A stretch of 64,000 nt of DNA from Bryoerythrophyllum caledonicum (taxonomy: Eukaryota; Streptophyta; Bryopsida; Pottiales; Pottiaceae), in NCBI GenBank assembly GCA_963971425.1, contig OZ020524.1, positions 806,001 to 870,000 on the forward strand. Direction: 5' to 3'. Of the stretch, positions 36,820 to 63,846 are shown in pieces; positions within the stretch are counted from its first letter, which is position 1; each line of letters opens with the position of its first letter. A model generated the notes under the pieces. It was given only the letters and a program-made list of their open reading frames with translations, did no database searches and was not told the DNA's origin. The position numbers and the translations under genes are program-made.

Positions 36820-36856
36820 CCTAGAACACGCAATTAAACAATTATGCACTTGGCCA
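36820..36856 (+). repeat. Left terminal inverted repeat of giant element
   Basis: Starts CCTAGAACACGCAATTAA and continues ACAATTATGCACTTGGCCA. It is followed by a 22-bp tandem duplication (TTGGCCATATAAAAGTGCAC) not present at the right end. Confidence 0.85.
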
Positions 36857-37417
36857 TATAAAAGTGCACTTGGCCATATAAAAGTGCACTTGGGTACAAC
36901 GGCGGCCATTGCGAACAAAAGTGGCAAAATTGCAAAAAAAAAAAAAAAAATCAATGAAAAAAAATGATTTCCAAAGAAAAAAAATTGAGCTTCTACAACA
37001 ATATTACGTACAATCATGGTTGTTAATATTGAAAGCGGTTTTTTGGCATTTTCAACTAATTTTTGGTGGCCCCTCGTTAATACTAGATAAATCTGTATTT
37101 AATATAGTTTCACAATATTTCAAAGATAGATTTGAAGGATTATAATATACAAACCGGCGTAATCACAGAAAAACATAGTTTATGCAAGGGTTGGCAGTTG
37201 ATTAAAAGATATTCTACGTAGTATATAATGCATACAATGGTGGAAATTAAATATAGATTCTTCTACATCTGGACTTAGCACCAATAGTAAAATTACCTTT
37301 ACTCTATAGGATTAATGACATAACGTCTTACATCACCCTTAGAATATACTACTCTTATACGTACACTATATATCAATTACCATACACAACTAGTATACTC
37401 TCATAAAGGCACACTAT

Positions 37418-40400
37418 CTACTCCACAGAATTTAGGGCTGCTTGCAAACGGTCGTCATCGATAGCTTCGGTTTGCATTGGAATATATTGTAGGATGTGAG
37501 CCTTTGCCGATTGAAGAATGCGAATCCTGCTTTCAACTTGCACTCCAAATACATTGCGCTTTCTCCACCCGCTCGCCCCAGACATGGTTCTTTCCAGTGT
37601 GTCTACCCATGAAAAAATGCATGAATCTTTCTCTACCCAACTATGGCTCTTCCCAGATGGCTCCCAGAATGAATCCATGCAATTTGCATACCGTTGTGCA
37701 GAAGACCCATGTCCATCAGCAACCCCCCTTTGGATAATGGGCCAATACCAACAAACCTTAATCTTAAGTCTCCATCGGTTTTTTCCTTCCTCAATCACTT
37801 TTCCCACATAGAATGGTACACCGCCTTCTATCTCTGCTTGATCAACACTCAAGGCTACAAACTGTCCACAACGGATATCAAGTTGTGGATTAAATGGTGG
37901 AAATGGGTCGTGATTACCTTCATACATTGCTCCTTCTTCGGCGCGTTCCTCAACATAGTTGCGCTCTGTTTGTTGTGCCCTACGCACTGCTTGATTAGAG
38001 GGTCTTCCTCTACGAAGACCGAAGTATCCTCGAGCCTCGGCATTTGGAAGCATGGCCACTACATGCTCTACAACATCTATCTCGCGATTTTCTTCACTTG
38101 CACCATCCATTACATCCAAAGATGCGCTCCCTGTAGGTCCGGTGTTGGATAACTTTGAAGGCCAAAACGGTGAGGAACGATGCTCATTGCTACGGTCTTT
38201 GTGTGGAAATTCAGCTAAATAGAGTTTCAATCTTTCAGCCTCTACTTTTGCCTCACGATTCTTGTCCTCATGCTGCAACCTTTGGATGCACCTTTCTTTA
38301 TATACAATGAAGTCATCCAACGCCTTCAACTCCCGTTCATACGCTCCAAATACTTCCGCAAACGCTGGTCGCTCATCCCTACTTGGCAACGACCTCAAAG
38401 TTTTCGTCCCTGCCTCCGGTCCCCATGGATCCTTGCAATAATGCTTGTGTTGTACTCGAACCACACGAGTCCCTTCTCGATTGTCCATATAGAATCGCAT
38501 GTGGTGCGGAAATGTTATGCCCACCAATGAATCCTGACCTGTCAGTAAGTGAGGAGTTATAAACAATTTCCAATCCCATACATTCTCTAGCAGCCGGGCG
38601 CTAACAAATGCCTCTGTAGGGGATGTTCCTTGTTCTATAAGACTCATCATTTCCTTCAACGAATCCACGTCCGACCTCTTCAACGTATTTGAAATACAAC
38701 TGAAGCGTTGATCAATATATTCGTGTGTATGGCCCACTATAAGAAAAGATAGTTCCACCTCCTGAAAAAACCCCAATCCCACCAATGTAGCACATAGAGC
38801 AAACATATAAATGTTTTTGTTCTCACGCGTGCAGTTGTCGGCCTGAATCCGCAGTGTTGGTGGCAAAAAGCCCCTCCTCCACAGCACATCTCCTATCACG
38901 TACAACAATGTACTCACGACTTGGTTGCTATCGTGTTTGTGGTGAGCCCCGAACCACACGTCGCAATATAAACCAATCCCATCTACAAGAGCACCACACA
39001 GATGGGTCTTCACAAATCGGTGTTCAATATTCTTCACAGTCTGACGCATCCTCGGTACCATGGTCGTGTTTTGGTCCATGCCATCCACGATGATGCACAT
39101 GTACAACTCAGGGCTAATATAACACGACCTCTTGAATATCCAATAATGCCTACGTTCTTCCATCTGGTTGCGTAGATGCAACATAAACAACTCCTTTATC
39201 TTTATCCTTGCATCCGCATTGGTGGTTCCTTCCATGGCACATTTATACTCCCAACAATGATAACACTTTGAGAATCTCGAGAATGGAGGTACCTGAATGT
39301 GGGGATACTTGATGCGCCACAACCTCCGAAACGAACTCATAGAAATGGTTTCTCCATTACAAATTCTCTTGACCTCCTCGTTCACGTAATTGAATACATC
39401 AAATTTGGCTGTATTCATAGGAAGGAGAATGAGAGGCACCACTTCGTTGTCACTCTTACGGCGAATACAACGATGAGGTTGAGGACAACCAGCTTCATCG
39501 ACAAACGATTTGAAACAAGCCTCTGCTGCAGACATTCTAGTACTCTCTCTTATCGGATCTGAAAGGGTATTGCCGTGAATCGATGTCACTCTTCCATATA
39601 TTAGACAATCCTTCTTCAATTGCTTAAAGCGCCTCTGTGAATATCCAACCCCAAGAGCGTAGCAAGCATTGCAAACTTCTTTCCCATCTAACTTTGTTAC
39701 AAACTTGTCTCGACGAGTTCCTTCCGTCCTTGTGTAAAAAGAAACCAGCATCTGTCTCATCCACGTACTTCGAACTGAAAACTCATTACCCCATGCACTA
39801 TCTCGCATGTCCAATAGATACCTTGCTGGAACGTCCCTCAAACAATTGTGTTTGCATCCTCCTTGTGCCATTGCAATTTGCACGCTTCTAAGCGATACCT
39901 TAGCTGGTGCAGCTTCTGTCAATGATGGCTCCCTTGAATCTCTCCTTCTCCTATTTTGCATAGAATATGGACAACGTGTTGGTCTAACATAAGCAAATCC
40001 ATCTATATGGGGCAAATCTTGGATACTCGAGGGAGTAGATTGGGAAAACGGCGAATTTTCATCTATGGCGTTTGAAGCATGACTACTGCGTCGAGACCTC
40101 TGGGTGGATCCTGATGTGTTGATAAACTCAGGAAAATCAAATTCTGTGGCCATCACTTGTGTAGGCGCTATCTGTGATCCAATGTCACCATGGACACCTG
40201 TGATATCGGGTTCTACAACCACTACACGTAGCAAAGACCGATGCCAACGAATGATCAAGCCCACACACATGCCAAGGCGTTCTCCTACAATCTCTCCGGT
40301 CCAATGCAATGCATCATCCACCCTAGTGATACGCACCGCCACCTCGAATGGAAACAACTTTGACCCATTCAACTCCATGCCACTTTTCAATGCATGCTCC

Positions 40401-40471
40401 CTGGTTGCTAAGCCCACCACATCTCCTCTCTCAGAAAGCAATTCTACTACCGTTTCTAATTCAGATGTCAT
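37418..40471 (-). CDS. DUF7869-like protein, candidate transposase
   Basis: Uninterrupted 1017-aa frame. Residues 1-200 are variable. Paired cysteines follow: CKHNC (206-210), CNAC (267-270) and CYHC (403-406). An RNase H-like core covers about 455-600: CIIVDGMDQNT (D463, D466), RIQADNCTRENKN (D545) and IVGHTHEYIDQRF (D587). The xxADNC..NKN and GHTH..D patterns are those I associate with the DUF7869 family found in repeat-rich plant and animal genomes. A basic helix (about 709-750) and a compact C-terminal domain (868-960, with VGKVIE and KVCWYWP) resembling a chromatin-reader fold follow. An in-frame extension to an ATG at 40609 is broken only by TGA at 40525-40523, so the ancestral start may lie there. 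A strand-transfer role is inferred from the acidic pattern and the flanking TIRs; it is not shown. Confidence 0.7.
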   Translation of the reverse strand: MTSELETVVELLSERGDVVGLATREHALKSGMELNGSKLFPFEVAVRITRVDDALHWTGEIVGERLGMCVGLIIRWHRSLLRVVVVEPDITGVHGDIGSQIAPTQVMATEFDFPEFINTSGSTQRSRRSSHASNAIDENSPFSQSTPSSIQDLPHIDGFAYVRPTRCPYSMQNRRRRDSREPSLTEAAPAKVSLRSVQIAMAQGGCKHNCLRDVPARYLLDMRDSAWGNEFSVRSTWMRQMLVSFYTRTEGTRRDKFVTKLDGKEVCNACYALGVGYSQRRFKQLKKDCLIYGRVTSIHGNTLSDPIRESTRMSAAEACFKSFVDEAGCPQPHRCIRRKSDNEVVPLILLPMNTAKFDVFNYVNEEVKRICNGETISMSSFRRLWRIKYPHIQVPPFSRFSKCYHCWEYKCAMEGTTNADARIKIKELFMLHLRNQMEERRHYWIFKRSCYISPELYMCIIVDGMDQNTTMVPRMRQTVKNIEHRFVKTHLCGALVDGIGLYCDVWFGAHHKHDSNQVVSTLLYVIGDVLWRRGFLPPTLRIQADNCTRENKNIYMFALCATLVGLGFFQEVELSFLIVGHTHEYIDQRFSCISNTLKRSDVDSLKEMMSLIEQGTSPTEAFVSARLLENVWDWKLFITPHLLTGQDSLVGITFPHHMRFYMDNREGTRVVRVQHKHYCKDPWGPEAGTKTLRSLPSRDERPAFAEVFGAYERELKALDDFIVYKERCIQRLQHEDKNREAKVEAERLKLYLAEFPHKDRSNEHRSSPFWPSKLSNTGPTGSASLDVMDGASEENREIDVVEHVVAMLPNAEARGYFGLRRGRPSNQAVRRAQQTERNYVEERAEEGAMYEGNHDPFPPFNPQLDIRCGQFVALSVDQAEIEGGVPFYVGKVIEEGKNRWRLKIKVCWYWPIIQRGVADGHGSSAQRYANCMDSFWEPSGKSHSWVEKDSCIFSWVDTLERTMSGASGWRKRNVFGVQVESRIRILQSAKAHILQYIPMQTEAIDDDRLQAALNSVE

Positions 40472-40827
40472 GATATCAACAGATCTCTGTTGAATTTGCC
40501 TTGTGCGTGCTGCTCGTACTAATCAGGCCCCCACAGAGCTATTGGAAAGCATATTATCCCTTTGGATGTGTGGCCGTATCGAAGGAGTCTGAATCGTGCG
40601 GCTCTCCATTATTACTATTCAAAAAATAGGAACATTATGGCTGCACATTAGTCAAAATACATGTACTAATTGTTAACCTTTAAAGCACCATTCATCTGAT
40701 AAAAGATATGTTTCTAAACACATATTTACAGTTCAAAATATGATGATGATGATATTGGACCTTTTGATGAAACAAGTTTGAAATTAAAAAATTAAGAATT
40801 TTTAGAGCATGAACTCCTTGCACAGAG

Positions 40828-41763
40828 TCTTTAACCCTGAAGATACAATGACAGTTTTACACCAAAAACACTTCAAAATTGTTGGATTCCAGCGCAATGA
40901 ATAAAAAAGGAAACAAAAACTTTATCTCTACTTTTGACCGTAGAATCTCAATTAAGACTTATTCAATAAACTTTGACCGCACGGATTGAAAAATTATAGA
41001 GTTTGAAGTCAAGCAAATGGTTCATTTTGTTCCCTGCATGCAGTGGATCAGCAAACTTTGACTTCACTTGGTGTCAATATTTTGCAGTACAGAAGGTCTA
41101 AATCTATAACCATCTTGTTAAGCATGATGTTAGTTCCTTGTACACCAATTTTCAGAGGTAGAGAATGGCTGCAGCATATTCAAAACAACCATGCAAGGAG
41201 TGGAAGTTTGGAAGTTGTTAATTCACAGTGTCATTTTTTGTGAACTTAATATGTTTTAGATTGGTAATTCAAATCGTCAATAAGAAGGTTTACACCACAT
41301 AATGTTGTGGAAAAAATGAAAAGTGAAATATAAAAAATTATCTAGGTTTTAATTGAAAAACAAGAAGTTTTTTTGGTACCTTGTCCAACACCGACTGACA
41401 ATGTGTGAAGTGTTTGACTTGGGTTGGTATGCTATTTTTCGCCAAAAACAAGAACTTATTTTGACAACATCAAGGGAAATTATATTACTTGCAAGTACTG
41501 AAAATCTCACATTCAACAGAGTGTCTTAGCAAAAGTTTTTGGACGTGCTCGACTTGCCTACTCTCCCCATTTGAAATTCAAAACCCTAAATTGTTTTGAT
41601 CAAATGTCCAATTTAGATAAAAAATTGTTTTCCCACTAAAGTCTTCGTAATGCCTTTCTATAGAAAAAATTTCAAAGAGAAATGGTGGAAATTGACACCA
41701 TAGGAACTTGACCGAACTTTCAAAAAGCCCATTTTGGACACTTGATCCTTTAGGGGTTAAATA
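40828..41763 (+). repeat. Family A element, full length, inside giant element
   Basis: Runs from CTTTAACCCTGAAG to CCTTTAGGGGTTAAA and includes all family landmarks. It lies between the divergent genes and is probably a nested insertion. Confidence 0.7.
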
Positions 41764-41935
41764 TGCTACACCTCTTCTGCATCCCTAAACATTGGTGTAA
41801 ATAGAACTTGTGGCTTTTTTTGACATGATGATAACGAATCTAGATCATGTGTGATGCGATTTTTTGAATCCAAGTGAACTGAAACGAAGGGAATCCACTG
41901 AACTTAGGGAAGAAAATGAACCATGTTGTCTACTT
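41764..41935 (-). repeat. Family A fragment, reverse
   Basis: ATGCTACACCTCTTCTGCA..GAAAATGAACC matches the reverse of the family A middle. It directly abuts the forward copy. 41936-42868 holds no supported gene. Confidence 0.55.
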
Positions 41936-42868
41936 GCTATTACCGACACCATTGGAACTTATTACAATCGCTAATGAAAAAAAAGTTTGTACATCCACAT
42001 TAAGGTTATTCTACAAACAACATAGTATAGAAGATCAATCAACAATCAATCTTAAACTTGTATAAAAATAAATGTTTACCTCAAGATACGTTGCAGGTGT
42101 TAGCGGTATACACACAGATGCTTGATGGCGTTCAACATTTAATCACCATTCTGTCGTTATTGAACATGTTTTTTAACCCTTCTCACTTTACCTGCACCAC
42201 ATGCATAAAATTTATACAGTAAACTATGCAATAAAACCTCCTAAGTATCATCGTATTACATATACCCCAAAATTTTAATAAAATATGTAAAAAGTTTAAA
42301 CATAAGGAGGAACAAAGCAAAAGGTCCAAAGTTCAAAAGTCAAACTTTGACTTGTAAACTTGAGGCACAAGGTTCCAACATGGATATAAGGATTCTATGC
42401 AAATCTGGAGGTCATTTCTCTTCTCAGTTTCTAAGGTGAGCTCTCTTGCATTCGAAACCTTAAGCCATGTGCATTTTTACTCCATTCACTAATTTCTGTC
42501 AACTTTGTGTACTGTGTAGATTGAAGGAAATTTGCACATCGAGGAGATAATAGCGAATTTGGTAAGCTTCTAACTTTGTTTCAATTCTGCATAGAGGGAA
42601 CTCAGGGATAGGTACATGATGATTGAAGTTCAGTGAGAGTTACGATAGAGTTAGGTAAATACCAATTTCTGTATACACAAATGAGGACACCAACTTCAGT
42701 ATGTACAAAATTGCAACGTTGAATGAATACACATACAGCAGTCAAGAACTAGTAAGTTAAACCTTCGTTCAACTGAAATAATTACACCAACACCATACAA
42801 ATTGAAGTCAATGTGAAGTTAATAATATGGCACTAAATCCTTAGTACGGCACATCACCGCACAACCTG

Positions 42869-42970
42869 AAACCCTAGCCGCCACACCCAGGCACCCAAAC
42901 CCTAGTCACCGCACACAAAACCTAGCCGCCGCAACTAAACCCTAACTGCCGCAGCCAAACCGTAGCCGCC
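42869..42970 (+). promoter_or_regulatory. Cluster of telo-box-like AAACCCTA motifs
   Basis: Three exact AAACCCTA and two one-off variants, most followed by GCCGCC, in about 100 bp upstream of the plus-strand gene. Telo-boxes occur in plant promoters and 5' leaders. Possible non-coding exon borders are visible nearby (TTTCTAAG/GTGAGC near 42435; TGTGTAG/ATTGAAGG near 42520; TTTG/GTAAGC near 42560), with a 3' splice site GATATACAG about 20 bp before ATG 44045. Confidence 0.35.
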
Positions 42971-43059
42971 GGTCCCACGGAGTTCACGCGACACCTGATG
43001 GAGTAACCGTGGACTGGAGGTGTGCGCGCGCACACCCCCAAGTGCTGCTGCTCCTGCAC

Positions 43060-43259
43060 NNNNNNNNNNNNNNNNNNNNNNNNNNNNNNNNNNNNNNNNN
43101 NNNNNNNNNNNNNNNNNNNNNNNNNNNNNNNNNNNNNNNNNNNNNNNNNNNNNNNNNNNNNNNNNNNNNNNNNNNNNNNNNNNNNNNNNNNNNNNNNNNN
43201 NNNNNNNNNNNNNNNNNNNNNNNNNNNNNNNNNNNNNNNNNNNNNNNNNNNNNNNNNNN
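43060..43259. other. Assembly gap, 200 N
   Basis: Exactly 200 unknown bases, a standard placeholder, so the real length is unknown. Translated frames crossing it are artefacts. The left edge is GC-rich (GTGCGCGCGCACACC), the right edge is family A. Confidence 1.
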
Positions 43260-43260
43260 G

Positions 43261-43985
43261 TTCAAAAATTCTCAATTCACATTATGTTTTTTTGTGAACT
43301 TGATATCGTTTGAAATGAGAATCCAAATGGTCAATACAAAGGTTTACATCACATAATGCCGTAGGAAAAATCAAAAGTGAATCAAACAAAGATCTCAAAG
43401 TTTTATGTGGAAAGGTAGAAGTTTTTTGGTACTCTCCTCAGAAATAAGTGACAATGATTGAAAATTATTGACTTGGATTAATATGCTATTTCACCAAAGA
43501 ACCAAGAACATGCTTAACATGATGGTATTGGATGTAGATCTTGTGTAGTTTAAAAGATTTTAGAGGTAGACAAGGGGTGTTAGCATATTAAAAAAAAAAT
43601 TGCAATGAGTGGAGGTTCAAAAATTCCCAAGTCACGTTATGTTTTTTTTTGAACTTGATATTGTTTGAAATGAGAATCCAAATGGTCAATGAGAAGTTTT
43701 ACATCGCATAATGTTGTAGGCAAAATCAAAAGTGAATCATACGAAGTTCTCAAAGTTTTATGTGGAAAAGTAGAAGTTTTTTGGTACTCTCCTCGAAAAT
43801 GTGTGACAATGTGTGAAAATAATTGACTTGGATTAATATGCTATTTCACCAAAGAACTAACAACATGCTTAACACGATGATATTGGATTTAGATCTTTTG
43901 TGGTGCAAAAGTTTTTAGAGGTAGACAAGGGGTGTAGCATGTTCAAAAAAGTTGTGCAATGAGTGGAGGTTCAAAAATTCTTATT
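43261..43985 (+). repeat. Two family A fragments in tandem
   Basis: Similar blocks at 43261-43560 and 43615-43925 (GTGAACTTGATATCGTTTGA, AAATGGTCAAT, AAGTTTTTTGGTACTCTCCT). They form a local direct duplication of part of the family. Confidence 0.65.
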
Positions 43986-44044
43986 CCATTCTAATAGTGA
44001 CTATCGTTTTGTAATGATATACAGGTTTTTTTGAGTGTTGCGTT

Positions 44045-47000
44045 ATGGCACCACCAAATATTGATAGAATCTGGGAGAGCCACGGCTGGTGGATCGCGGA
44101 AGTGGATGAGTCGAGCGCCTTCTTATGGGTGACGGATTATCCCTTTGAGCTGGGGAACGAACATCGGCGTTGGGGAAGAGTTTTGGCAAAATCCAGGCAA
44201 TCACTCTTCGACGTGATGATATGGTATACGTTACTTGCGCAGTGGGTCCAGGTCAATCGGAGGTGAAGACTTCTCTTTCAAAGAAGTTGCTTCTTGCACT
44301 TGTCCCTTTGAATCTTCTTCAAAATCCAGGTCAGGTGAAATTCCTCAAATCATTGCAGACGTTTTGGTTGAACATCTCTCTTGCGGTACGTATCGCTAGG
44401 CACAACAACGTCTTAGCCTGTTTAGCGTTATCACCGGAGATGGTGCTGAAGGCTAAGAAGATTATGGAGGAACATATTAGATATGAAGCATTTCGGGAGA
44501 GGGACCCATCACGTGCGACAACTCAAGCCCCACCAGCGGAACCAGAAGAAACAGAAGTTTATCGAATTCTTGCTGAGCCGTTGCAACTGGATTGGCGACC
44601 ACTAGAGGGGGGGAGAGGAAGTGGAGGCCAACATCCCACCACAACTTCTGAGGTACAGACATTACCGAATCCTCCATTAACGAGTAGACGTCCTACGAAG
44701 AGGCCACGACGTATTGACAGTGATGTAGCTTCTGGTTCAAGAGAAGGCCCATCAAGTTAGGATCCAAGTGGGAGGAGGTTGATTGGGAGAAGTGCAAGAT
44801 CTGGTGGCAGGATTCCTAGGTCGGGGCTCAGGACGTCTGATGGTTATCATAGGGCCCCTACATCTACACCGGGAGATTCAGCTGATTTGTCAGCCATGGC
44901 GCCGGAGGAAGAAGATTTTCAGAACCTTCCAGACAATATACCAGAGGATTTTGAAGACAATGCAGAGATACCACAAGATGTTCCAACTCCTATGAATTTA
45001 AAAGCACCAGTGCCTACAACAGAGGAGATTGCGAAAGGATCAGTGCGGGGGAATTTTGTGTTTATGGCACACATGGACCGCATTGTCTCTATAGAGAATC
45101 CGGAAACCAACCACCGGGTTTTATCACAGAAGAGGGTCAGAGAAGTATTCAACCGCTTACGAGACCCAGAATCCGCGACTCGGGTGAGTAGATTGGTACT
45201 TCAACCGATCAGATACATCGTGCATACTACCACCGATGATGGTGTCGTTGAGAAGGAAGAGCTACAATTTCCGTTGGTAGGTACCGCACGAGAGTTTGAA
45301 CGCATATTCATTGCACACGGGAGTGCTTCTGCATAGGGTGCCATGAGATCCCAGTATTCTTGGCTTCAAGATCATATCATTTGGGAACCGGTGGATGGGC
45401 AACACATAGTAGCAGCTTGTAAGTTTGCACAGCAGCAGTGGAGAGATGGTACTATGCCTTTAAACGAGTATCTGGACACGTTTGAGGGGCGGGAGGCCTC
45501 TTTTGTGGTGTATGATGATCGTCGCTTTTACATTGAGAAGTCTGCGCGGATCAACGTGGCGGAGTTCCAGAGATATTCATATTCTACCATGGAGGAGAAT
45601 TTGAGGAAGATCCGTCAGATTTGGGATCTATATGGGAGGCCTGATAGCACACTACGTGCGGACGATGCACGCAGGGCAGTTGCTTTGGTGAGTGCGGCAA
45701 GTGCAGTGCATAAGTTGCCCAAGGGAGATGGAGTTGTCACGGTGAAGAGGTTGGCCAAAAACATGGAGGATCTGACCAATCATGCATGGAATCCGAGCAA
45801 TGACTGCTTCGAAGCTATCATTCAAGTATGCAAGGACTACGAAGACGGCATTCTCTTTTACAGCAAGGAGGAAGAGGACAAGTGGAAGGACATGGCGAGG
45901 AAGAAAGAGCTGGATCCAAATGTGGACGTACGACCAACAAGAAAGGAGATGACGCAGAATTGGTTGAGGCCTCTAGGTAGGGTTCCGAATCCATATTATC
46001 TTCGGTTGGCAAAGTCTGCTGCAACGAAGCCGGTGAGGGAGGATAGAGTAAGACCTTCTCAAGCATATTACTTCGACGGTGTAAAAGACAAGAATCCACA
46101 TCCTCGTACGATTGCCGGTGTGGTTGACCGATATCAGAGACGAGAAGCTGTGATGAATTCGATCCGTTGGTTGATGGTGGAGAACAAGGAAAGTACACCT
46201 GATTCCATGGAAGAGTTCTTTCGTATCCGTGTAGCGAAGTATTTTCCGAGGAGTAGTGCACAACTTGATACCTTTGGGAAGCTTTTGAATGCTGCCACGA
46301 AAAAAGCTTGGAGTGCTCCTGTGCGGGGGAAGGTGTCTAAACTGGAAGACATAGGCTACCTCATCCCCCCTTCCATCAGGTTTCATTATGGTGACATTGC
46401 AGCAGGGGGGCGTGGATACATTGAACTGTCCGTGGATGTGAGAGAATTGGCTACTGCTAATTGGGAATGGCAGATGGAAGTCAAGAGGCCAGGGTAGAGC
46501 GACATAGAGAATCTTCTTCCGGTTCGGTATAGAAGAGGATTATTCCGCACCGACTACATAGAGTTGGGGAAACCATGTTTGTGGGTGATTGATTGTCGAC
46601 GTGGCGGTGGGAGGCATTGAGATGGTCATTGGGGAGACGCCCAATTATCCGCAGCTTTTGCACAGCTGACATTATGGATGGCAAATATTGAACGATGGAA
46701 CGTCATCTTCTTGTTACCAGCGGTTGTGTATGCCAATGAGGAGTTTTTCACGAAGGTGAAGCTTCCAGAGGGATGTACTATGCGACGTGGATGTTGGGCT
46801 TTTGATCCCAACTCGGTTAATCCCTATGCTCTTGATTTTACAGAGAATGGGCGTCTTGAGCAAGTAGTACAACCGATTGGCGATGTTGTGATTTGTATGC
46901 AGCACCCTGTGGGTACATCTCCTGGCCCGAACTATGTTTCTGGAGACGTTCCACTTCCACTTGTATTCTTGGATCACTGGAGTGAGGCACGCCAACCCTC

Positions 47001-47988
47001 TGAAGTTGATTCACTTGAGAGATCTCCATCAGAGCTCGCAAGACTAGTGGGCTCATACTTGCCCCGTGGTTGGGGTTTAGTGGCGTGTAACATATCTACG
47101 GCCATTCCCACGATCCTTGAAGGAGATTTCCAGGGATCTGAGGTTTTCATCATTGACGATTGTACAGACAGAGTTTCATTCCTGTACAATGAGTTGTCCG
47201 ACAATTTCCAAGGACAACTGTTGGTCAGGACTGGTGGAACAAGTACTGGTTGCAACATCGTACCTGAGACCGAAGATGCGGTTGGTGGAGTGAGGAATGA
47301 AGAGGACAATGAGGATGGAGGTGGTTTACATGAGAGATTGCCGCGTTCAGGTACCACTGAAGATTTTTCATCTGGCAGTGATTCAGACGCCGATGAGGAT
47401 GGAGAGAGAATTCCATCAACACAGCGGACGGTGGGAGATACTTCAGGGGCGACGTCTGCAACACCTACAGAGAGGATGCAAGATACAGGTGTAGTAGATG
47501 TTAGTTTGGCGGCAAGGGCAGGACGGGGGCGTACATTTGATGGTCCTAGGTTGGAGATGGATGAAGAAGGATTGGATTCATGTGAATTTTTTTCGGTGCA
47601 GAGGAGGATTCGACAGCCTTCGATGCCTCCTCAATCAGAGCTTGTATCGGAGACACAAGAGACGTTCGGAGGTACTCAGAGTGATACCGGACCAGGTTTG
47701 CCTCCCATTCCAAGATCTAACGTATCTGAGGACATCATTGCATTTCAGGGGGCCTTCTCATCAGAGCGAGAGATGTCCTTCAATGCAAAGGATGGCTTTT
47801 TCTATAATGATGACAGGGTAAGGCATACGTGGGAGGGTGTTCCTGGCAATTACCGATTTGTTGAGTGTGCGTCCATTGGCATCGAAGATGTGGGAGATCG
47901 TCCAGTGGAGGATCATGAACTATCCGCTATGGTAGGTAGCGCCATTGGACACGTGGAGGGAGTCGTTCCGCGAGCAGATGAGCTGTGA
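44045..47988 (+). pseudogene. ParB-like plus methyltransferase-like protein, broken
   Basis: ATG 44045 opens MAPPNIDRIWESHGWWIAEV. Between about 44170 and 44266 the reading moves to frame 1 and stays there to TGA at 47986-47988. Inside it are TAG at 44758, 45334 and 46495 and TGA at 46618. N-terminal part: helical segment, then a basic nuclear-type RRPTKRPRR. Middle part (45061-46497): VSIENPETNHRVLSQKRVRE, VLQPIRYIV, EPVDGQHIVAACKFAQQQW, FVVYDDRRFYIEKSARINV and STMEENLRKIRQIW, the layout of a ParB/sulfiredoxin-type domain (position-dependent VDGxHxxxAA). C-terminal part: PCLWVIDCRRGGG, LPAVVYANEEF, ELARLVGSYLPRGWGLVACN and STAIPTILEGDFQGSEVFII, resembling an adenine methyltransferase, although DPPY reads DCRR. 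The tail is acidic and Ser-rich. These domain assignments are inference from motif order. Confidence 0.5.
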
Positions 47989-48553
47989 GCCGTGGAGCTA
48001 TATACTATAGTAGAGCATGCACGCAGTTTAGGTGGCAAGTACGTTAGTATTATGTAGTTTGAGATGTGTCTATCGTTCGGTTGGTGGTATATATTTATAT
48101 ATTGGGTGGTCCATATGATATGTTTGATTTTAGAATTCCTCAGCAATAGTGTGGAATTGCTTGATTATGTATGTTTTTGCATTATAAAATACAGTGAGGT
48201 ACTTTACACTGTCTTAGGAATTTGCATATATATTTTTGTATCTCTTACACATTGTATTTGTAGTGCAGTACTCTAAAATCCTATAATAACTCATAACACA
48301 TTTATAATCTCTTTGGGCACATGATCATAATTTTGTAGCATGATTTGCAAACTAGAGTAGAAATCATATATTTTCTAAAAAAAGGTAGCGAATGTAAAAA
48401 ATATATTACTGATATGAACATAAAGATGCCAATGTATGATACGACAAACACCAAAAAAATTTGACTAAAAACATACTAAAATTTTGCCAAATTTTGATTT
48501 AAAAAAAGTTATGAGCAAATAACTTGCGGCTTTCTACCACCAACCAGTGCACT

Positions 48554-48590
48554 TGGCTAAGTGCATAATTGCTTAATTGCGTGTTCTAGG
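48554..48590 (-). repeat. Right terminal inverted repeat of giant element
   Basis: Ends TTAATTGCGTGTTCTAGG, the inverse of the left end with two mismatches over 37 bp. Preceded by CCAGTGCACTTGG, matching the subterminal motif on the left. Confidence 0.85.
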
Positions 48591-59339: not shown

Positions 59340-59962
59340 AACTTTAGCTGTTACACTTACGGCTCTTTCAAAAAACCAACCGAAGTAAGTCTGAGCCATT
59401 CGCACCGGGAAAATCCAGCTATGGAATATACAACCCCACCAACCAAATTAAACTCGCCAAAAGACTACGTGGACTCCAAAACATTCTTAGAGCCGAAATG
59501 ATGGCAATTCATAAAACCCTTAGGATAATCACTATGAAATACCCCAACGGCTTGGCACACATTTTCACTGATTACATTAATCTATTTTACCTTCTAAACA
59601 CACACATAAAACACCCTACTCAACACAATAGTCATTTGGACCAAATTATCCTAACATACATGGTCCAAATGCTCCAAAATTGCACGCAAGTCACTATATT
59701 CCATGAAGTTAGAGCTCACGCTAACATTGACGACAATGAACACGCTGGCAAATTAGCAAAGGAAGGTAGAGAGAAAACCTACCAAGATGCCAAATATCTC
59801 TACAACCACGCCTACGCCACCCCATACTACTTTCATAGATATGAATGGCCCCATATGGACAAAACCCACGACAATGGCCGCATAAGATTCTTGGACAAAT
59901 ATCCAAAAAAAATAACCTCAAAAATAACTTGGAAAGAATTATGGAAACATTCCCCTTATTGA
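59340..59962 (+). pseudogene. LINE RNase H domain, broken
   Basis: From 59340: YTYGSFKKPTE, where Tyr replaces the first catalytic Asp (normally DGS); then GKSSYGIYNPTNQIKLAKRL, RAEMMAIHKTLRI (second acid, Glu), HIFTDYINLFYLL (third acid, Asp) and VRAHANIDDNEHAGKLAKEG (the His loop and last Asp). The second half is an open 154-codon frame. The order fits RNase H downstream of RT in the LINE. Confidence 0.75.
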
Positions 59963-63062: not shown

Positions 63063-63846
63063 CTTTTAACCCCTAAATTTCTTGGACAATTTCTCACCAA
63101 AAACACTTCAAAACTGCTCGTTTAAGTGCACTGAGTAAGGACAAATCAAAAAACTTTTATTTGTAGTTTTAACCGTGGGATCTCAATTAAGACTTACATA
63201 AAAAAATTCATAAAGTTTGACTGCACGGATTGTAATATTATAGTGTTTGAAGTAGAGAAAAGGGTCAATTTTCTTCCCTCCATTTAGTAGATCAGCAAAC
63301 TTTGACTACACTTGGTGTCAAATTTTTGCACTACACTAGGTCTAAATCCAAATGATCAATAAGAAGGCTAACACCACATAATGCTGTAGAAAAAATAAAA
63401 TGTAAAACATATGATGATCTCAAAGTTTTATGTGAAAAAGAAGAAGTTTTTTTGGTACCTTGCCCGACAATGTGGAATAATGTGTGAAAATGTTTGACAT
63501 GAGTTAATATGCTTTTTTTTTTACTAAAGACAAGATATTTTCTTTGGCAATTTGGAAGGAAATAATATTATTAGCTAGATTTGAGAATTTCACATTCAGT
63601 AGAGTGTCCTAGCAAAAGTTTTTGGAGTTGCCCGACGTGCCTACTCTCCCCATTTGAACTTCAAAACCCTATAATTTTTTCATAAAATGCCGGATTTAGG
63701 ATAAAAATGGACTTACACAAAGCTTTTAGTAATGTCCATCTACATTAAAAATTTCAAAAAATGATGTTGTAAATTGACGCAGGAGGTACCTACCCCAACC
63801 TTGTAGAGTCCCCCAAGGGAATATTTGGAAATTTAGGGGTTAAAAG
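63063..63846 (+). repeat. Family A element with perfect 19-bp terminal inverted repeats
   Basis: A 784-bp copy whose ends are CTTTTAACCCCTAAATTTC and its exact inverse at 63828-63846. This is the best preserved termini of the family in the window. No ORF is shared with other copies. 63847-64000 shows nothing further. Confidence 0.8.

Follow-up and report, generated by a model that had tools for sequence, protein, structure and literature searches.

The window analyzed here (the whole 64,000-nucleotide stretch of moss DNA, positions 806001–870000 of contig C12, OZ020524.1) contains an element of 11,761 bp at 36825–48585 that is probably the decayed copy of a large two-gene DNA transposon that appears to have moved recently. 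The first gene encodes a protein of the family DUF7869, which is most likely a DDD transposase, and the second encodes a partner protein that would be another factor needed by the transposon. Several features that are characteristic of DDD/E DNA transposons were found. Copies dispersed in the host genome (437 Mb, 894 contigs) share terminal inverted repeats, the target-site duplication has a fixed length of 4 bp, and three acidic residues of the DUF7869 protein are conserved. The initial annotation had described an autonomous DNA transposon. This holds for the family, which is of the autonomous type and has another gene besides the DUF7869 gene with its DDD-like triad, but the window's own copy has decayed.

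The element is bounded by terminal inverted repeats of 32 bp, which match at 30 of 32 positions and lie at 36825–36856 (plus strand, beginning AACACGC) and 48554–48585 (minus strand). Directly outside them, the same four bases, CTAG, form the target-site duplication at 36821–36824 and 48586–48589. Inverted ends of 37 bp had been proposed for this element, and the segments 36820–36856 and 48554–48590 do pair at 35 of 37 positions, but the outer 5 bp of each side (CCTAG and CTAGG) do not belong to the inverted repeat. They appear to be inverted because the duplication CTAG is palindromic and one more base pairs by chance. In the other copies compared, the 4 bp outside the terminal A are a direct duplication. 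This A precedes ACACGC in 28 of 29 further copies that were fetched by their DUF7869 gene, and the bases beyond it vary. A larger count has A in front of 82 of 84 ends, but 40 of its loci were retrieved with a pattern that already contains this A. Since this makes it partly circular, the count of 28 of 29 was used. The termini of the family read AACACG..CGTGTT. The subterminal motif AGTGCACTTGG is present on both sides, preceded by A on the left and by C on the right, and the left side carries two perfect 20-bp direct copies of TGCACTTGGCCATATAAAAG at 36845–36884 (plus strand), followed by a third, partial copy. The motif on both sides agrees with the initial annotation.

Other copies of the ends occur in the same genome, as had been anticipated, and with hundreds of them chance is excluded. 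Counted as exact 29-mers, the left-type end (..CTTGG) was found at 729 places genome-wide and the right-type end (..CTTAG) at 373, with no occurrence of either reversed control. The window's left end differs from the left-type 29-mer of the family at one position. Positions were taken for the first 100 left ends, all of which are on contigs C1 and C2, and for the first 100 right ends, of which 61 are on these contigs. Among the ends listed for C1 and C2, there are 27 inward left/right pairings closer than 20 kb (one left end is counted twice) and no outward or same-strand pairings, and the spacing is 12.5–14.4 kb in 14 of the 27. Ten full-length pairs were sampled from the 14 by fetching the sequence on either side, and all ten carry an exact direct duplication of 4 bp. 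In an earlier set of ten, which included the window and was read by eye, the duplication was seen in seven of the eight readable pairs; the remaining two were unreadable (one end mutated, one not found). The duplicated bases vary and include CTAG, CATC, TTTC, and TAAG. It could be supposed that the inverted ends match by chance and that both genes belong to the host and have nothing to do with each other. The probability of this is negligible, since the hundreds of end copies, the 4-bp duplications, and the pairing of the genes refute it, and nothing was found in its favor.

Ends of the left type also face each other. Eight of ten such left/left inward pairs span 2.2–6.0 kb and are perhaps internally deleted copies. 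Two left/left copies situated about 60 kb apart (C2:3103772–3109788 and C2:3164168–3170178), both without an exact duplication, have outer flanks that are mutually reverse-complementary, which suggests an inverted segmental duplication. Additionally, a weak target preference, C-A-C (C 0.47, A 0.66, C 0.52), was observed immediately beyond the 4-bp duplication in 79 ends of fetched loci, with both sides pooled and no background model.

The DUF7869 gene of the window lies on the minus strand at 37418–40471 and encodes a putative DDD transposase of 1017 residues. The assignment to this family, made earlier from the letters of the DNA, was confirmed: the frame matches PF25273 with an E value of 1.5e-47 and 162.1 bits, compared with a curated cut-off of 26 in Pfam. 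The Pfam scan of the protein gave no other family, and Pfam's own name for DUF7869 assigns no function. Seventeen relatives were found among approximately 5.8 billion proteins, and five of them are 73–82% identical over the full length. Within the host genome, 45 copies (the window included) were scored from 4252 first-look candidates; they are 93–100% identical, and 36 of them are free of stops. A search of the genome with the family model placed all 150 scored places above the cut-off (from 3611 first-look candidates), compared with 0/14 in control genomes. The frame is 1063–1076 residues long in 25 of the 29 other fetched copies, and the N-terminus of the window copy is shortened.

The three aspartates that had been noted in this protein, D463, D545, and D587, are present and, in aligned columns, are kept in all 26 loci whose frame has 1010 residues or more, the window among them. 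Their spacing of 82 and 42 residues plausibly suits a DDD transposase, in which they would be the catalytic residues. The window copy also carries two changes, H497 to D and D585 to Y, neither of which is found in the relatives covering these positions (16 and 14, respectively). D585 is invariant in the 14 relatives that cover its column. It lies close to D587 but is not itself the triad residue, and the reading of the change as a catalytic loss was set aside.

The partner gene lies on the plus strand and diverges from the DUF7869 gene. Its start (MAPPNID...) is found at 44045–44169, out of frame with the remainder at 44170–47988, and in a copy on contig C2 the frame from this start runs open for 1272 codons. 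Two long divergent frames had been described, and both were recovered, but the plus frame is broken here by three TAG codons (44758, 45334, and 46495), one TGA (46618), and one frameshift. Elsewhere in the genome, stop-free partner copies have open frames of 1317–1356 codons, and when the window's own frame was used for the search, 19 of 36 scored copies were stop-free. In a second subfamily, called B (the window belongs to subfamily A), five of eight fetched copies encode 1344–1345 residues from the first ATG, and the B copies are 78% identical to a metagenome protein, P0018. The size of the partner protein is thus about 1,345 residues. Both genes are single uninterrupted frames in intact copies, so there is no need to postulate an intron. 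The window copy itself is dead or trans-dependent, and at best moves in trans, because it has no intact partner, its DUF7869 protein is shortened at the N-terminus, and H497 and D585 are changed.

TAG accounts for three of the four stops, which would fit decay through the loss of a methylated C in CAG. Recoding of these TAG codons was considered as well, but with 19 of 36 scored copies free of stops, decay is simpler. The relatives of the partner in protein databases comprise eight distinct proteins, seven found with the window frame and seven with a profile, in searches whose scoring was limited in both cases to the 7999 candidates with the most words in common; none of the eight has a precomputed Pfam domain. 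A prokaryotic or viral origin of the genes was rejected. No confirmed relative of either protein was found in viral_contigs, none of the DUF7869 protein in plasmids or in genome_contigs (where the search covered this protein and not the partner), and none of P0018 in phages.

The association between the two genes is close. In subfamily A, at least 20 of the 45 DUF7869 copies, including the window, have a partner head to head at a distance of 3.7–6.4 kb; this number is a lower bound that comes from the partner matches listed (58 distinct places, after 13 of 71 rows were dropped as repeats). In 20 of the remaining copies, 301 bp were sampled where the partner was expected to lie, and 15 of these samples matched it, two of the matches being partial and interrupted; the partner was present in two of three further copies sampled. 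In total, it accompanies DUF7869 in 37 of the 43 tested copies of subfamily A, the two outside this test being on the short contigs C561 and C864. For subfamily B, 11 partner copies were sampled out of 14 rows at 77–78% identity, and every one has a divergent DUF7869 gene upstream. The gap is wider there: a sample 6.6–6.9 kb upstream found the gene in one of the 11, and a sample 8.3–8.6 kb upstream found it in the other ten. The partners of the two subfamilies differ by about 0.22 nonsynonymous changes per site. Since the pairing is seen in both subfamilies, with partners this diverged, the genes travel together in two subfamilies. The expectation that they would occur together elsewhere was therefore borne out.

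Selection on both genes was estimated from the ratio of nonsynonymous to synonymous substitution rates (dN/dS). For DUF7869, the ratio is 0.57 in the youngest pairs and falls to 0.18–0.27 in older ones, with 0.18 in the most diverged, which points to selection for the function of the protein through successive moves. For the partner, it is 0.19–0.22 between subgroups of subfamily B and 0.33–0.35 between subfamilies A and B, and judged by these ratios, the partner is under purifying selection. The initial annotation had called the second gene cargo, but a partner kept in two subfamilies under such selection is more than something carried along in passing.

A mechanism can be proposed that would join these observations. 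The DUF7869 protein, most likely a DDD transposase with an RNase H fold, would recognize the AACACGC ends and perhaps also the subterminal TGCACTTGG repeats. It would excise the element and insert it through 4-bp staggered cuts, in a cut-and-paste reaction. The partner would be another factor encoded by the element and required for the family to persist. By analogy with other two-protein DNA transposons, it is most likely a transposition partner, such as a DNA-binding or assembly subunit, or else an anti-silencing factor.

There are several points that weigh against a DDD transposase working with a needed second factor. The RNase H fold of DUF7869 is deduced from the conservation of the three residues and their spacing, and a search of the PDB gave no sequence relative of the protein. 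The flanks of one copy, C4:28893344, are unequal, and only five of ten left/left inward pairs have an exact duplication. Six of the 43 tested subfamily-A copies have no partner at either of the two spots sampled (C2:30211289, C4:32008461, C14:19122185, C2:14787755, C10:13153625, and C14:15595504). The dN/dS set for DUF7869 comprises only long-frame loci (26 of 30, with four shortened frames excluded). The partner ratio between subfamilies A and B, 0.33–0.35, is derived from one partial subfamily-A partner compared with five copies of B, and for certain very similar partner pairs the ratio is 0.65–0.67. Finally, the selection seen on the partner is evidence of its importance, but not of a part in transposition.

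The role of the partner was approached through the motifs first reported in it. ParB-like and methyltransferase-like motifs had been read in the plus frame, and on visual inspection VDGQHIV does look like the G.HR box of ParB, and the segment between PSELSRLV and VIDD like motifs X and I of methyltransferases. A partner derived from a ParB-methyltransferase could mark the DNA of the element and thereby shield it from silencing or restore its expression, and transposons carrying epigenetic modifiers are known (excerpts of PMC12730594). This origin is improbable. No DPPY-type catalytic motif is visible by eye, and the Pfam scan of the four plus-strand open reading frames of the window gave nothing at E ≤ 1, ParB and methyltransferase models included. 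Five relatives of the partner, scanned against Pfam at E ≤ 10, gave only matches at E 0.1 or worse, and NCBIfam gave no support for either domain. In PHROGs, the eight members produced six chance-like matches, the best being phrog_35330, whose function is unnamed, with an E value of 0.0018 in one of the eight. The partner profile was also compared, using hhalign, with ten Pfam-checked phage and plasmid methyltransferases from nine loci, another locus that had been fetched being left out. One of the ten, carried by a Vibrio phage, is a true ParB-methyltransferase fusion. The probabilities were 0.5–1.2%, which is background, in a comparison whose power is limited by the shallow partner profile. 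Column-shuffled controls attained this score in 7 of 100 and 3 of 60 cases, and elsewhere in the partner equal or higher scores occur (up to 21.4 versus 18.2). As a positive control, the Vibrio phage fusion compared with the other methyltransferases gave 99.4%. These figures concern the methyltransferase half; for the ParB half, the positive control itself reached no more than 6.9%. The name ParB/methyltransferase should not be used for the partner.

The region between the two gene starts (40472–44044) is composed in part of repeats. Units of about 355 bp are arranged in tandem and vary in number: in the window they occupy 43260–43970, with a diverged copy at 41206–41505, and one copy of the element on contig C2 (L040) has three full units between its genes. 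A 20-bp minisatellite with AAACCCTAG-like units lies at 42869–42990. The ~355-bp repeat also occurs outside the element, at 138–368, 772–1004, and 63345–63517 of the window. A frame farther along the window, at 59498–59962, presumably belongs to the RNase H part of a LINE-type (long interspersed nuclear element) retrotransposon, as judged by eye.

These repeats bear on whether the partner is an anti-silencing factor like that of the Arabidopsis VANDAL elements, acting sequence-specifically on the DNA of the element, perhaps via the intergenic repeats. Such a factor has a precedent, cited in the excerpts of PMC12730594, and the variable number of the repeats, the purifying selection on the partner, and its close pairing with DUF7869 would all agree with it. 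The ~355-bp repeat is found outside the element as well, so it is not element-specific, and the likeness to the VANDAL protein is drawn from its description. On balance, this role is rather unlikely, although clearly less so than a ParB-methyltransferase ancestry.

DUF7869 and PF25273 are named in no paper of the literature searched (CC0, CC BY, and CC BY-SA). Now that DUF7869 is linked to precise ends, to 4-bp duplications, and to copies in the hundreds, its role as a transposase family can be put to the test. The presence of a second large protein, which is selected but has no convincing match to a curated family, raises the question of what the element needs a partner for. With many stop-free and closely related copies, this genome is a good candidate system for activity tests. 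A more far-reaching proposal is that DUF7869 is a eukaryotic transposase superfamily of its own, with 4-bp duplications and, in this lineage, AACACG ends, obligatorily paired with a protein some 1,345 residues long that has a new fold and possibly functions in DNA modification or anti-silencing. This new two-protein class is put forward tentatively, as a possibility on the doubtful side.

The two-gene transposon described here can be compared with known systems, as far as they are described in the excerpts of the papers cited. Members of the CMCT clade (CACTA/EnSpm and others) have CA..TG termini in most cases (PMC12730594). The ends here are AACACG..CGTGTT, and the C(2)C motif between the second D and the last acidic residue was not found (no CxxC was seen by eye between residues 545 and 587 of the DUF7869 alignment), so this clade is disfavored. 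Kolobok elements (KolX and other accessory proteins) are similar in having a 4-bp duplication and, in several lineages, a transposase with a second protein (PMC9587614). They differ in duplicating TTAA, a sequence shared with piggyBac and found in none of the 17 confirmed duplications of left/right pairs (CTAG, CATC, and TAAG occur here). VANDAL/MuDR elements likewise combine a transposase with a second element-encoded, self-regulating protein (PMC12730594), but the duplications of Mutator-like elements are 7–12 bp (PMC10741241) compared with 4 bp here, and the Pfam scan of the putative transposase of the present element gave only PF25273. The fungal transposons that carry TET/JBP proteins, namely Zisupton/Dileera (KDZ) and IS3EU, are also DNA transposons that encode an additional conserved protein (PMC12730594). 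The partner described here matches no TET/JBP model in Pfam scans, and neither the 6-bp duplications nor the TAYGG ends of IS3EU (PMC12730594) are seen.

Among the DDD/E superfamilies listed in the excerpts of PMC9587614, of which part was compared, Sola fits the element best. The initial view that the element lies outside the familiar superfamilies made no mention of Sola and is unproven, because Sola as described in the literature likewise combines 4-bp duplications with a DDD triad. As described in the text available from PMC10741241, Sola elements have a DDD transposase, 4-bp duplications, and very variable ends, are mostly 2–9 kb with some exceeding 15 kb, and have been reported in the moss Physcomitrella. 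Sola2 has 4-bp duplications as well, and some of its members carry a captured protein, Fanzor1 (PMC3627910). If the element is a Sola-superfamily transposon, DUF7869 would be the Sola transposase and the partner a lineage-specific extra, an interpretation that specifies the two-gene transposon reading. It is a serious possibility, although it falls somewhat short of being probable. The element is likened to Sola by published description and not by transposase sequence, these excerpts describe no such partner for Sola, and the AT-rich AWWT sites reported for some Sola2 families (PMC3627910) are not preferred here, where CATC, TTTC, and TAAG were found. The two have in common 4-bp duplications, a DDD transposase (predicted in the case of DUF7869), a size range that allows large elements, variable ends, and occurrence in a moss, along with the extra protein of some Sola2 elements.

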